Position numbers and translations under genes: made by a program | In this document: one piece after another, positions 59,106 through 64,000 of the stretch | How the letters are laid out: each line of letters starts with the position of its first letter | Numbering within the stretch: position 1 is the stretch's first letter | The notes under the pieces: model-generated | What the model was told of the DNA's origin: nothing | The model's input: only the letters and a program-made list of their open reading frames with translations | The model's database searches: none | Assembly (NCBI RefSeq): GCF_034048115.1 | Contig: NZ_CP139145.1 | Coordinates: forward strand, 4,092,001 to 4,156,000 | Length of the DNA: 64,000 bases | Source of the DNA: Pseudarthrobacter sp. IC2-21 | GTDB lineage: Bacteria; Actinomycetota; Actinomycetes; Actinomycetales; Micrococcaceae | Direction: 5' to 3'

Positions 59106-59879
59106 TCAGCCCGGATCCGGCCGCGACAGCGAGTGCAGCCACTCGATGGCGCCGTCAGTTATCGGATGGGCTACGCCGAGAGTTTCAAGGAACGAACGTG
59201 CGTCGTGCATCTCGGCCTCGCGCCGGGCGGCATGCGTGGATGTGCCCTCGAGAATCCGGGACACCGCACGTTTCCCTTCCGGGCCAAGCTCGGAAGCTAT
59301 TTGGTCAATGATCCACTCCTCCGCTCCTGCCGCCCGGGCAGCAGTGACGGATTCGAGGACCGCCGCGGCGAGGCCTTTCATAAAGACGCTCCGCAGCAAT
59401 TTGAGCCCCGCCGCGGCTCCCGCTTCCTCGCCCACAGTGCTGGCAGGAATCTGCAGTCCGGCCAGGATGGACTGCAGCTGCGCGGCCCCGGGTCCGCTCA
59501 TGGCCAGCGGGGTCCGGGCCCCGGATCGTGGAACCGGGGCGAGGATCGCCACGTCAACAAAGGCGATGCCATGCGTGGCCGCTCGTTTCGCGAGGAGCAG
59601 CTTATCTGCCGGGCCGGCAGTATTCATGTCAGCGAAGATGGCTCCCTGTTCCATCGCCGGCAACGCCGCGTCCAGGACGGTGCCCGCCGCGCGGCCGCCC
59701 ACCAGGCTCAGCACGAGCGCTGCCCCGCGGACTGCCGTGGCGACGTCGTCCTCGGAACGGACCCCCGCCGGCGCCGTGGCAACGAGCGGATCAACTGCCG
59801 CAACGCTCAGCCCCAGCCGGGCGAGGTCTGCTGCATAGATGCTTCCGGCTTCCCCGAGACCTAAAACGGCGACCTGCAT
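59106..59879 (-). CDS. 6-phosphogluconate-dehydrogenase-like NAD(P)-dependent oxidoreductase (DUF1932)
   Basis: 257 residues. N-terminal Rossmann segment VAVLGLGEAGSIYAADLARLG, the second turn ALVLSLVGGRAA, and GAIFADMNTAGPADKLLLA. The C-terminal domain has LRSVFMKGLAAAVLESVTAA and EWIIDQIASELG with a catalytic Lys in that helix, which matches DUF1932 proteins rather than classical 3-hydroxyisobutyrate dehydrogenases. Divergent from a GntR regulator with ATTGTAGACAAAAT in between. Its substrate may belong to the methoxy-aromatic/gallate route encoded beyond the regulator (inference). Confidence 0.88.
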   Translation of the reverse strand: MQVAVLGLGEAGSIYAADLARLGLSVAAVDPLVATAPAGVRSEDDVATAVRGAALVLSLVGGRAAGTVLDAALPAMEQGAIFADMNTAGPADKLLLAKRAATHGIAFVDVAILAPVPRSGARTPLAMSGPGAAQLQSILAGLQIPASTVGEEAGAAAGLKLLRSVFMKGLAAAVLESVTAARAAGAEEWIIDQIASELGPEGKRAVSRILEGTSTHAARREAEMHDARSFLETLGVAHPITDGAIEWLHSLSRPDPG

Positions 59880-59906
59880 GGGACACTTCCCTCCGTTGCT
59901 CCTAAG

Positions 59907-59920
59907 ATTGTAGACAAAAT
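59907..59920. promoter_or_regulatory. GntR operator candidate (ATTGTAGACAAAAT)
   Basis: Partly palindromic (TTGT-AG-ACAA) and AT-rich, 27 bases before the oxidoreductase start and 55 before the GntR start. TTGTAG and ACAAAAT both recur at 63584-63602 before the O-demethylase gene, pointing to one regulator for both promoter regions. Confidence 0.5.
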
Positions 59921-59974
59921 GGTGGCCAGCATCAGCGGTGCCTCTGTTCGGCGATTATGGGAGATAGGGCAGGA

Positions 59975-60676
59975 ATGTCGTCAACGCTTGAAAATGCCTC
60001 ACCGTCAGCGGACGCGGAACCCGGCGCTGATCAGAGGGTGACCGACATTATCCGCGACGCCATCATCCGTGGTGAGTACGTTCCCAACCAGCGGCTCGTT
60101 GAGGCGGACCTCAGTGCCGCTTTCTCGGCAAGCCGGGCCACCGTGCGCACCGCCCTGCTTGAGCTTGCCGGCGAAGGCCTGGTGGAACGGCTGCCGAACC
60201 GCGGATCCCGGGTCCGGTCAATTTCCGTGGATGAGGCCATCGAAATCCTGGAGGTGCGGATGGGAGTCGAAGGCCTGTGCGCCGCCAAAACAGCCGCCAG
60301 TCTCACGGATGAGGACGCCGAAGCCCTCGGCCGCCTCAGGGCTGCCATGATCGAGTCGGTCGCCGAGGGAGACCTGGTCGAATATGCCCGGCTTAACCGT
60401 TACCTGGACGTCAGGATCCGCGAGCTGAGCAATCACGCCACGGCCGCCGATGTGCTGGCGCGGCTGCACGCGCAGAGCGTCCGCCACCAGTTCAAATTGT
60501 CGTCCCGGCCCCAGCGCGCAAAGGTCTCGGTCTGGGAGCACGCCGCCATCATCGACGCCGTGGTGGCCCGCGATCCTGAGGCTGCGGAGCAGGCGGTGCG
60601 CAGCCACCTGCTGAGCGTCATCGAGGCACTTCGTGAAGTCTCATCCGCCGACTCCGTGCCGCCTGCCGCACCGTAG
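59975..60676 (+). CDS. GntR family regulator (FCD/FadR-VanR subfamily)
   Basis: 233 residues from the ATG at 59975 (AGGGCAGGA just before; 59957 is an alternative). The N-terminal winged helix spans about 20-80 (VTDIIRDAIIRGEYVPNQRL; AFSASRATVRTALLELAGEG). The C-terminal FCD domain has EILEVRMGVEGLCAAKTAA, DVRIRELSNHATAADVL and WEHAAIIDAVVARDPEAAE with the metal-binding His. Its stop is two bases from the convergent O-demethylase stop. VanR-type members respond to vanillate, which fits the neighbours. Confidence 0.92.
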   Translation: MSSTLENASPSADAEPGADQRVTDIIRDAIIRGEYVPNQRLVEADLSAAFSASRATVRTALLELAGEGLVERLPNRGSRVRSISVDEAIEILEVRMGVEGLCAAKTAASLTDEDAEALGRLRAAMIESVAEGDLVEYARLNRYLDVRIRELSNHATAADVLARLHAQSVRHQFKLSSRPQRAKVSVWEHAAIIDAVVARDPEAAEQAVRSHLLSVIEALREVSSADSVPPAAP

Positions 60677-60678
60677 CC

Positions 60679-62134: not shown

Positions 62135-63487
62135 CTAGGCGACGCGGTAGTTCTCACGGGCGAACTGCACAAACGGTGCGGGGGCCACGGTGGCGCGCAC
62201 GGCCACCTGGCGGTGCGGCTCCACCTGGAGCTTGTTCGAATTGGGCTCTTCGCCCCAGAGCACCGTTACCTCATCACCAAGCCCAGCGGTGCCCGGGTGC
62301 AGGCTGGCGAGCGAAACGAAGGACTGCTCATTGGCAATATAGCCGCAGTCGAAGGACTGGCCTATCGCGGCCCCGTCCCGGAGGACCAGATCCACCTGGT
62401 AGAGGGCGTACCGTGCCTTGGGCAGCTCGATGTACTTCGCGGGAAGGCCCGGCCGCAGGAGCGAGCCGATCGCTTCCTGGACGTCGTCCGGGTTCCACAC
62501 CAGCGTAACTTTGTGGCGGTGCGAGCCCTCGGGCAGGCCCCTGAGCGCGTCGCTGCCGATGAAATCATGGTCGAAGGCCACGGAGCGGCCGTAGCCGAGG
62601 TCGTACGGGGTCAGGTAGTAGTCCTCGATCTCCGGTGAAGCGAAACTTCCGCCGAGCGAGCCGGCCGCCGGGGCGGGAAGCCACTCGCGGTAGGCGCGGA
62701 GCGCGTCATCGGAGAAGATTGCCGGCACCGGTGAGGGCACCCAGCCGGATTCGAGGTTCGCGGTGGAGTACCCCTTGGCCCCCACCTGGGTCAGGCCGAA
62801 CTCCGCGCCGGTCTCCAGCAGCGCGTCCCTGACCCGGGCGCCGTCGGCCCACGGTCCAAAGAGTTCGTATCCGGGCTGGCCGGCCATCCCGTGCCGGATG
62901 CTGCGGACTTCCAGCCCCGCGATCGGGAAGCGGCCCATGTGGAAGAACCCGATGTGCGGGACGGGGGCGCCAATCAGCTTCTCGATGATGGCGGGGGCGG
63001 TTGGTCCTTGCAGCTCGTACCTGAACAGCCGCGGGTCCCCGGGCCGCACGATCGAGTTTCCGTCCCGCTCCATCTCGACCTCGTGGCCGCCGGTTTCGGC
63101 GTGGAACTGCACCCAGTCGAGCACCATCGGGTGCCCCACCAGGTTGTAGGAGTCCTCCTCAAGGTGGGCCAGGATGGCGTCGCCGATCAGTTGCCCCTGG
63201 TGGTTGACGGCAATGAACTGCTTGGCGCGGTCCGCCGGGAAGGTGGCGAAGGAGTTCACGGCGAGCCCGCTAAGGAGCGCTTCGGTGCCCGGGCCGCGAA
63301 GAAACAGATCGGTCATGTGGTGGGACTGGTCAAGCAGGGCACAGCTGGTCCGCCAGGAGCGCTGTTCGGAGCGCCAGTTGCTGAACTCGGGTGTCACGGG
63401 GAAGACGGTGGGGCTGGCCTGCGAGTTGCGCAGCAGTTCCGTTGGAGAGCCCAGCCGTTCGATCGCGGCCTGCAGGGTTTCAGTCAT
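62135..63487 (-). CDS. Second LigM-like O-demethylase paralog (GcvT family)
   Basis: 450 residues from the ATG at 63487, the position matching the paralog; an in-frame ATG at 63535 with a distant AGGAG would add 16. It shares with the next gene [54 protein letters not shown] and [13 protein letters not shown]; by eye roughly half of the positions are identical. 43 bases separate its stop from the next start. Two diverged copies suggest two substrates, for example vanillate versus syringate/3-O-methylgallate. A six-codon leader frame precedes it. Confidence 0.82.
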
Positions 63488-63504
63488 TGCACTGTCTTCG
63501 TCAC
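63484..63504 (-). CDS. Six-codon leader peptide frame overlapping the O-demethylase start
   Basis: GTG ACG AAG ACA GTG CAA TGA, preceded at six bases by a perfect AAGGAG. Its TGA overlaps the ATG of the O-demethylase gene (ATGA). The ATG itself has no comparable ribosome binding site, so translation may be coupled through this short frame. Small size makes it uncertain. Confidence 0.35.
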   Translation of the reverse strand: MTKTVQ

Positions 63505-63583
63505 GGTGAACTCCTTTGTTCGACCCGCGCGCCATGAGCGGCAGGCTCCTGAATCGTGAGTCTAGAACATGCGTGCCAGGATT

Positions 63584-63602
63584 GGTAACAAAATTGTAGC
63601 CG
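63584..63602. promoter_or_regulatory. Second GntR operator candidate in the O-demethylase/GalB-like intergenic region
   Basis: GGTAACAAAATTGTAGCC contains ACAAAAT and TTGTAG in the opposite order to the site at 59907-59920. It sits in the 224-base divergent promoter region, about 100 bases from each start. One GntR protein for both sites is inference. Confidence 0.45.
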
Positions 63603-63711
63603 AAGCCTTGATTAAGGTGCCGGGGCGTGGTTGTCTGGCACTGTCCGCTGCTGCCGCTGTCGGGAATGCGAAGGCATGACACGGTGCGGAGCGATCCGGA
63701 AGGGATTGATC

Positions 63712-64000
63712 ATGGCCACAAAGGGCACTGTGCTCGTCGTGAGTGCGCACGCGGGCGATTTCGTCTGGCGGGCCGGAGGTGCCATCGCCGCCGCAACCGC
63801 CCGCGGCGAGCGGGCCGTCGTCGTCTGCCTCTCCTACGGCGAGCGCGGCGAATCGGCCAGCCAATGGCTTGCCGGGAAGTCGCTGGAGGACATCAAGGCC
63901 CTGCGCCGCAGCGAGGCCGAGGCCGCCGCCGCCGCACTCGGGGCCGAAGTGGAATTCCTCGACGCCGGCGACTACCCGCTGCTGCCGAGCCGCGAACTGC
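63712..64000 (+). CDS. PIG-L family protein, 5' part; resembles 4-oxalomesaconate hydratase (GalB)
   Basis: The first 96 residues are visible; the gene runs out of the window. The PIG-L/LmbE fold starts with TVLVVSAHAGDFVWRAGGAIA, in which the usual zinc motif P/A-H-x-DD reads AHAGDF, and continues VVVCLSYGERGESASQWLAG and RRSEAEAAAAALGAEVEFLD. The SAHaxDFVWRAGGAIA and SYGERGES elements are those of GalB, the 4-oxalomesaconate hydratase of gallate degradation, rather than of glycolipid deacetylases. Divergent from the LigM-like genes, which fits a gallate/methoxygallate pathway. Confidence 0.8.
   Translation, partial: MATKGTVLVVSAHAGDFVWRAGGAIAAATARGERAVVVCLSYGERGESASQWLAGKSLEDIKALRRSEAEAAAAALGAEVEFLDAGDYPLLPSREL

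Follow-up and report, generated by a model that had tools for sequence, protein, structure and literature searches.

Gene organization of the locus

The window analyzed here is a 64,000 nt stretch of the Pseudarthrobacter sp. IC2-21 genome (contig NZ_CP139145.1, positions 4,092,001 to 4,156,000; 4.265 Mb in a single contig), and its right edge cuts into a gene cluster that joins predicted tetrahydrofolate (THF)-dependent O-demethylases of the LigM/DesA family to the lower gallate pathway. The cluster probably degrades methoxylated lignin acids as a vanillate/syringate-to-gallate module whose ring-cleavage enzyme is a VOC-type gallate dioxygenase. Its genes are listed in Table 1 in window-equivalent numbering (contig position minus 4092000, or position in locus L004 plus 59000), which continues beyond 64000.

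The initial annotation had described two diverged LigM/DesA paralogs in tandem, a convergent GntR gene, a divergent PIG-L gene and a DUF1932 gene, and all five genes were found in these orientations. It had placed a GalD-like tautomerase, a 4-carboxy-4-hydroxy-2-oxoadipate (CHA) aldolase and folate C1 genes to the right of 64000, where GalD, GalC, MetF and PurU indeed lie; together with GalB and the LigM scores, these genes support its proposal of a demethylase module feeding a gallate pathway. Two of its expectations needed revision. The tandem pair is real, but the cluster holds three LigM-family genes (LigM1, paralog B and LigM2), two of which are LigM while paralog B is neither LigM nor DesA; further family matches in the genome are weak (at most 60.1 bits, inside longer open frames). 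Likewise, a ring-cleavage gene does follow the PIG-L gene, but it encodes a VOC protein and not an enzyme of the GalA, DesB or LigAB type.

A type I extradiol dioxygenase paired with gallate-pathway genes

The ring-cleavage enzyme belongs to the VOC superfamily (type I extradiol) and not to the LigB type. Its nearest listed relative is from Arthrobacter sp. SO3 (94%), and, among the matches listed, relatives that their sources name are called 'VOC family protein' or 'catechol 2,3-dioxygenase', and once 2,3-dihydroxybiphenyl dioxygenase. In an active-site alignment of 83 loci (the best 80 VOC loci plus L099 to L101), the metal-ligand set of two histidines and one glutamate is kept, with H164 and E278 in all 83 and H227 in 82 (one has R). 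Position 210 is tyrosine in every locus and in PDB entry 9wgj; the same column is histidine in 3lm4, the near-identical 7q2a, and 5znh. We take this histidine (His200 of homoprotocatechuate 2,3-dioxygenase) to be the second-sphere acid-base residue of the characterized enzymes. Entry 9wgj (351 bits to the query) is labelled 'Catechol 1,2-dioxygenase', a name that looks wrong because its sequence is that of a VOC extradiol enzyme with the clade's tyrosine.

The partners of the VOC gene were surveyed at two levels. Across 198 genomes of the order, a VOC protein (E ≤ 1e-60) occurs in 11 and a strong GalD match (at least 434 bits) in nine, five of them above the cut-off of 440 bits, with the next match at 302 bits; in all nine, the VOC gene lies no more than 160 bp from GalD. 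Moreover, the best 80 of at least 593 confirmed VOC candidate loci, with stored flanks of up to 10 kb, were searched by tblastn (E ≤ 1e-12, 40% coverage). Matches were obtained to GalC in 67 loci, GalD in 66 (within 300 bp of the VOC gene in 60), GalB in 46, the DUF1932 protein in 38, a LigJ-like hydratase in 17 and a LigI-like hydrolase in nine. The latter two names are tentative, as the Pfam match of both amidohydrolases is Amidohydro_2 only, and NCBIfam offers no model for the LigJ-like protein and, for the LigI-like one, a 4-sulfomuconolactone hydrolase model with a score below cut-off. Nine of the 80 loci contain an aldehyde dehydrogenase at 60% identity or more, and two LigB queries matched none of the 80 within the stored flanks. 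Restricting the count to loci flanked by 9 kb or more on each side leaves 57, of which 46 carry both GalC and GalD and 49 carry at least one. The pairing extends to a Roseibium plasmid, where a VOC gene (55% identical), PIG-L, CHA aldolase and a 4-oxalomesaconate (OMA) tautomerase stand consecutively.

Eight of these 57 loci carry neither GalC nor GalD, and in the searchable genomes among them genes for processing OMA were found elsewhere. Six such genomes were searchable (all eight loci except L009 and L042), and all six encode a CHA aldolase above cut-off at another site. The five aldolase regions that were opened each hold LigJ-like, LigK, LigI-like, LigA-like and LigB-type genes together ('LigA-like' being the small gene that precedes LigB in L097 and is annotated there as protocatechuate 3,4-dioxygenase); in the sixth genome, GalD lies about 1.1 kb from the aldolase. 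In these five genomes the protocatechuate 4,5-cleavage route looks served by LigAB, and the VOC enzyme is therefore not needed for protocatechuate. With LigAB standing beside the genes that lead from OMA to the tricarboxylic acid cycle in trans, it can thus be argued that the VOC enzyme makes OMA from a source other than protocatechuate.

A GalA-like gene elsewhere in the IC2-21 genome was considered and rejected. A single LigB-superfamily match turned up, a 265-aa gene at a distance of almost 2 Mb that is nearest to a 4,5-DOPA-dioxygenase model (145 bits, cut-off 233). Among the nine GalD genomes, LigB-superfamily matches are absent in G069, G139 and G196, about 13 kb off in G145, far off or on another contig in G000, G014, G028 and G173, and within the cluster in G148. 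In G148, LigA-like, LigB-type, CHA aldolase, OMA tautomerase, VOC, DUF1932 and LigJ-like genes form one run (L111, 3649-9607) that contains both kinds of extradiol enzyme.

Two LigM enzymes and a third demethylase clade

LigM1 scores 909 bits with the LigM model NF047885, compared with 629 for DesA (cut-off 800) and 86 for GcvT. The LigM equivalog cut-off is passed with a margin of 329 bits by LigM1 and of 286 bits by LigM2. The model is not fully selective, since one DesA reference reaches 637 bits with it, yet scores higher on the DesA model. Both LigM proteins keep all six compared pocket residues of SYK-6 LigM (Y29, Y31, Q57, H60, R122 and Y247), positions known from LigM structures.

Paralog B behaves differently. 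It scores 540 bits with the DesA model NF047633 (cut-off 800, which two Novosphingobium references pass with 854 and 841 bits), 498 with the LigM model (cut-off 580) and 57 with GcvT, and it shares 44-49% identity with the LigM and DesA references. In LigM numbering it retains Q57, H60, E215 and Y247, and it carries T29, F31, H122 and D127; DesA retains Y31 and R122. Across its clade, His or Trp (Leu in one case) takes the place of R122, Phe that of Y31, and position 29 holds Thr, His, Phe or Met instead of Tyr. This clade comprises 34 of the 82 rows of the family tree (midpoint root, three short rows left out) and is set with full support apart from the group in which DesA is the sister of LigM. 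Among the best 120 of 7703 matches, the closest relatives come from Arthrobacter, Agromyces and Pseudarthrobacter (79-91%), followed by Microbacterium and others (65-71%); a Rhodococcus opacus plasmid relative is 60% identical.

Several identities were thereby discarded. The GcvT scores rule out a GcvT/sarcosine-type enzyme for LigM1 and for paralog B, a finding that would have refuted the initial annotation had it gone the other way. Paralog B is not DesA, by score and pocket residues, and its LigM score together with T29, F31 and H122 speaks against LigM. A SesA/BrdA-type demethylenase is not favored on identity, Rhodococcus BrdA being reported at 26.7% to LigM and DesA in the excerpted text of PMC5547118, well under the values for paralog B. 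By its sequence, paralog B is a candidate demethylase for syringate or another methoxy-aromatic compound.

Paralog B and LigM1 form a tandem beside gallate genes in IC2-21 and L013; in L015, L016, L025, L038 and L048 they share a strand at a spacing of 1.1-1.3 kb. In A. rhizosphaerae (L008), LigM1 is directly divergent from GalB and the paralog B relative lies about 12 kb away, past LigM2 and transporter genes; from this arrangement, paralog B looks like a piece of the module that can change place. A subgroup of ten rows within its clade (100/100 support) is marked by F29, H122 and H123 (for example, L009 8602-9978 and L013 2789-4321); it shares loci with LigM1 in Sinomonas and Microbacterium, and co-occurs with a paralog B gene in L013, L014 and L047. 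Further, in two Microbacterium loci (L046 and L047, about 8467-12228) the VOC gene is divergent from LigM1, and past it a gene start resembles, by eye, a MetE-like methyltransferase, possibly a different sink for methyl-THF.

Lower pathway, one-carbon genes and wider metabolism

The PIG-L protein is GalB-like, matching PDB entry 5cgz with 268 bits (next match, 42 bits), and the MetF-like protein matches 7xg9 with 292 bits (next match, 43 bits), an entry that we take to be SYK-6 MetF. GalC falls below the stricter model TIGR02798 (275 bits, cut-off 304.5). The aldehyde dehydrogenase reached no equivalog cut-off in the 25 of its 42 matching families that were inspected. In the gap between its gene and metF (68824-68872), a perfect 16-bp inverted repeat, CCACCACTTTACCTAT / ATAGGTAAAGTGGTGG, with a 17-bp spacer was spotted by eye.

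Outside the cluster, VanA_C had no match in the genome (a control search finds it in C. glutamicum), and VanAB in place of LigM was rejected on this ground. No match to a LigI-like protein was obtained, in a search run without a positive control, and this weakly disfavors a route through 2-pyrone-4,6-dicarboxylate (PDC). The genome yielded no further syringate demethylase, and no esterase for 4-carboxy-2-hydroxy-6-methoxy-6-oxohexa-2,4-dienoate (CHMOD) is among the annotated cluster genes. Because PcaGH is present, VanA_C is unmatched and the other LigM-family matches are weak, vanillate would most simply pass through LigM to PcaGH, and syringate through paralog B and LigM to gallate and the VOC enzyme.

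The pcaGH genes belong to a quinate/shikimate-protocatechuate module (48489-56797), a few kb from the methoxy-aromatic module. They are flanked on one side by a pcaB-like gene (298 bits, cut-off 356) and on the other by a QuiC-type 3-dehydroshikimate dehydratase-like gene, a shikimate dehydrogenase, an IclR regulator and a shikimate-type transporter.

Candidate operator sites

The gaps 59880-59956 and 63488-63711 share ATTGNNNACAAAAT, which is absent from the rest of the window and from all 100 shuffles; as the pattern was derived from those two sites, its uniqueness is a description and no independent test. A. rhizosphaerae (L008) has both sites in the corresponding gaps. Moreover, the palindrome ATTGTNNACAAT has 78 exact sites in the 83 loci against 0.67 expected, with 53 loci carrying at least one and 65 of the 78 sites no more than 350 bp from a cluster gene start (18% of all bases lie this close), counts that are not independent because the consensus was chosen after viewing 13 loci and the loci share descent. 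The window itself holds the palindrome only with one and two mismatches. The GntR protein, as the candidate binder, probably regulates the module by way of ATTGTNNACAAT-like sites. In Pseudomonas NGC7, the GntR-type VanR2 serves for syringate with a different site, GGGATCCC, according to the excerpted PMC12314914.

Table 1. Genes and candidate operator sites of the methoxy-aromatic module and its surroundings (window-equivalent numbering)
Feature	Position	Strand	Remarks
pcaG, protocatechuate 3,4-dioxygenase alpha chain	49958-50527	-	TIGR02423 190 bits, cut-off 126
pcaH, protocatechuate 3,4-dioxygenase beta chain	50520-51416	-	TIGR02422 351 bits, cut-off 296
DUF1932 / NAD_binding_2, 6PGDH-like NAD(P)-dependent dehydrogenase	59106-59879	-	
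Candidate GntR operator ATTGTAGACAAA	59907-59918		DUF1932/GntR gap; one mismatch to ATTGTNNACAAT
GntR/FCD transcriptional regulator	59957-60676	+	Candidate module regulator; convergent with LigM1
LigM1, predicted THF-dependent vanillate/3-O-methylgallate O-demethylase	60679-62091	-	470 aa; start corrected; assigned by score, pocket residues and tree
Paralog B, LigM/DesA family, third clade	62135-63487	-	450 aa; start corrected; 43 bp from LigM1
Candidate GntR operator ATTGGTAACAAA	63581-63592		Divergent B/galB gap; two mismatches to ATTGTNNACAAT
PIG-L, GalB-like, predicted 4-oxalomesaconate hydratase	~63712-64443	+	Divergent from paralog B; start picked from alignment; cut by window end (64000)
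GalC, CHA aldolase	64440-65180	+	PRK09262 309 bits, cut-off 179
GalD, OMA tautomerase	65167-66246	+	NF033377 494 bits, cut-off 440
VOC extradiol dioxygenase	66273-67250	+	Best NCBIfam model TIGR03211; PDB 9wgj
Aldehyde dehydrogenase	67298-68803	+	PF00171 410 bits
MetF-like	68913-69800	+	PDB 7xg9; Pfam MTHFR 25.5 bits, cut-off 24
PurU	~69817-70683	+	Start inferred; PRK06027 362 bits, cut-off 223
LigM2	70779-72191	+	NF047885 866 bits, cut-off 580
PadR	72257-72880	+	
Branched-chain type ABC transporter operon	72899-77640	-	PF13458; LivG 218 and LivF 206 bits, both below cut-off
Candidate operator	77677-77688		One mismatch; precedes ABC operon

Proposed route and alternative readings

From the sequences, the enzyme families, the gene order, the recurrent pairing of VOC with GalD, the LigM-type pockets of LigM1 and LigM2 and the motif enrichment are established features of the module. 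In the proposed route, LigM1 and LigM2 would transfer the methyl group of vanillate and 3-O-methylgallate to THF, and paralog B would most likely add the conversion of syringate to 3-O-methylgallate, a step not covered by LigM. MetF and PurU, with an assumed FolD, could then recycle methyl-THF to THF and formate. The VOC enzyme would open gallate between C4 and C5 to give OMA, which GalD, GalB and GalC would convert to pyruvate and oxaloacetate, with vanillate-derived protocatechuate leaving through PcaGH. LigM-type demethylation needs no O2, and extradiol ring cleavage needs O2. We infer here what the VOC enzyme and paralog B act on, and what part the aldehyde dehydrogenase, the ABC transporter, the GntR regulator and the DUF1932 dehydrogenase play; for the VOC enzyme, the conversion of gallate to OMA is suggested by its gene context.

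Several observations weigh against this reading. Gallate activity is not on record for this VOC clade. The DUF1932 gene, which the initial annotation had called an unexplained member, has proved to be a recurrent partner of VOC, although gallate cleavage needs no dehydrogenase. Neither GalC nor GalD lies near VOC in 8 of the 57 full-flank loci; of the six genomes with a CHA aldolase in trans, G201 to G203 show no GalD match and G198 and G200 weak ones only, and G135 and G177 have VOC with no strong GalD and with a CHA aldolase below cut-off (153 and 168 bits). A LigB-type gene shares the VOC cluster in G148 and in Roseomonas, a co-occurrence that would not be expected from a simple replacement. 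In addition, paralog B has lost R122, common to LigM and DesA, and the shared descent behind the operator counts and the imperfect sites of the window itself count on the same side.

An unlikely alternative casts the VOC enzyme as a protocatechuate 4,5-dioxygenase, the DUF1932 or the aldehyde dehydrogenase oxidizing 4-carboxy-2-hydroxymuconate-6-semialdehyde (CHMS) to OMA and skipping LigC and LigI, in a PDC-free meta pathway from vanillate. It stands mainly because gallate cleavage does not explain the DUF1932 partnership: a dehydrogenase is required for protocatechuate and not for gallate, and the DUF1932 gene, whose best PDB matches are uncharacterized proteins, is flanked by VOC and the LigJ-like gene in L111, L114 and L115. 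The aldehyde dehydrogenase also adjoins VOC, both here and in Sinomonas (where no GalC or GalD is near). However, IC2-21 already has PcaGH, five VOC genomes already carry LigAB-type genes with LigI-like, LigJ-like and LigK genes, DUF1932 is unmatched in 42 of the 80 loci, and the aldehyde dehydrogenase is rarer still. Cleavage of 3-O-methylgallate instead of gallate, yielding CHMOD or PDC so that paralog B and VOC would suffice for syringate, is less probable again; Pseudomonas NGC7 offers a precedent in MgaAB, which cleaves 3-O-methylgallate ahead of the second demethylation (PMC12314914, in excerpt), and the LigI-like PDC hydrolase relatives point the same way, but in IC2-21 neither that hydrolase (no positive control) nor a CHMOD esterase among the annotated cluster genes was found, and two LigM copies able to make gallate are present. 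That an ordinary catechol or homoprotocatechuate 2,3-dioxygenase sits in the cluster by chance is very improbable: the best NCBIfam model is indeed catechol 2,3-dioxygenase and the listed relatives' names agree, but its 294 bits fall short of the cut-off of 320, the GalD pairing recurs in several families, and the tyrosine at position 210 is invariant.

For paralog B, by comparison, action on a methoxy-aromatic without a ring carboxylate (guaiacol or syringol type) is a serious contender, if the weaker one, to action on syringate. Its clade has replaced R122, which we take to bind the substrate carboxylate in the LigM family, as well as Y31, both kept in LigM and DesA. Against this, paralog B lies near LigM1 here and in the six other loci named above, here and in L013 beside gallate genes, and the genome offers no other syringate demethylase.

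With BLC23O, a 283-aa catechol 2,3-dioxygenase, the phenolic content measured for gallic acid fell by 14% within 6 h (PMC9925492, excerpt), so weak gallate action of an enzyme of this type is on record, and BLC23O was inactive on protocatechuic acid (PMC8671467, excerpt). AromaDeg assigns gallate dioxygenases to the LigB superfamily (PMC4250580, in the part available), and no description of a VOC-type gallate dioxygenase in a catabolic cluster was recognized in the available portions of the open-licence literature.

Comparison with known systems and implications

The module shares THF-dependent O-demethylases, a MetF near 7xg9 and the OMA/CHA lower pathway with the LigM/DesA system of SYK-6 and Novosphingobium; it differs in that PurU adjoins MetF and LigH (formyl-THF ligase) is not seen in the cluster, that paralog B is not DesA, and that a VOC enzyme stands where LigAB, DesZ or DesB cleave the ring there. 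The gal operon of P. putida KT2440 likewise has GalB, GalC and GalD homologs in one run, whereas the IC2-21 cluster lacks its GalA-type (LigB superfamily) dioxygenase and has a GntR-type regulator nearby in place of the LysR-type one (PMC9942251, excerpt). Plasmid pRop44186_a of R. opacus DSM 44186 (L097) gathers LigM, a paralog B relative, MetF, PurU, PIG-L and CHA aldolase in one cluster, but its dioxygenase is of the LigB type and the 31 kb examined contain no match to VOC. Type I extradiol enzymes (catechol 2,3- and homoprotocatechuate 2,3-dioxygenase, 3lm4, 5znh) share the superfamily and the ligands; the present enzyme departs from them in having Tyr210 for the usual active-site histidine, in its OMA-pathway linkage and in scoring below curated cut-offs. 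The protocatechuate 4,5-dioxygenase PcaA/PcmA of Pseudarthrobacter and Arthrobacter is actinobacterial too and also converts gallate to OMA (44% of activity), but it is a single-subunit type II enzyme with a CHMS dehydrogenase and a PDC hydrolase as partners, as the consulted part of PMC8431788 describes.

LigM/DesA-type genes, whose chemistry the initial annotation had called best known in Sphingobium, have precedents in actinobacteria: the excerpted PMC9296663 makes a LigM-type call in a Micromonosporaceae metagenome-assembled genome and mentions 'DesA-like' genes in others, actinobacterial ones included, and the R. opacus plasmid cluster is comparable. What surprises relative to known systems is a VOC enzyme for ring cleavage together with a demethylase clade beyond LigM and DesA, in a module that is real and conserved. 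On balance, the evidence leans toward the tyrosine-bearing VOC clade, found in many Actinomycetota and reaching Alphaproteobacteria, being an unrecognized second origin of gallate dioxygenase, joined here to a third O-demethylase clade with an altered pocket that takes syringate or a non-carboxylated methoxy-aromatic. The capacity for gallate and syringate may be overlooked in genomes, because VOC relatives carry generic or catechol 2,3-dioxygenase names and gallate dioxygenases are classed in the LigB superfamily. If the reading is correct, Gram-positive hosts for lignin valorization would gain a compact pathway that carries vanillate and syringate into central metabolism and releases no formaldehyde, unlike VanAB (PMC12314914, in the part seen), and the module would offer a dioxygenase active site and a candidate O-demethylase clade to study.

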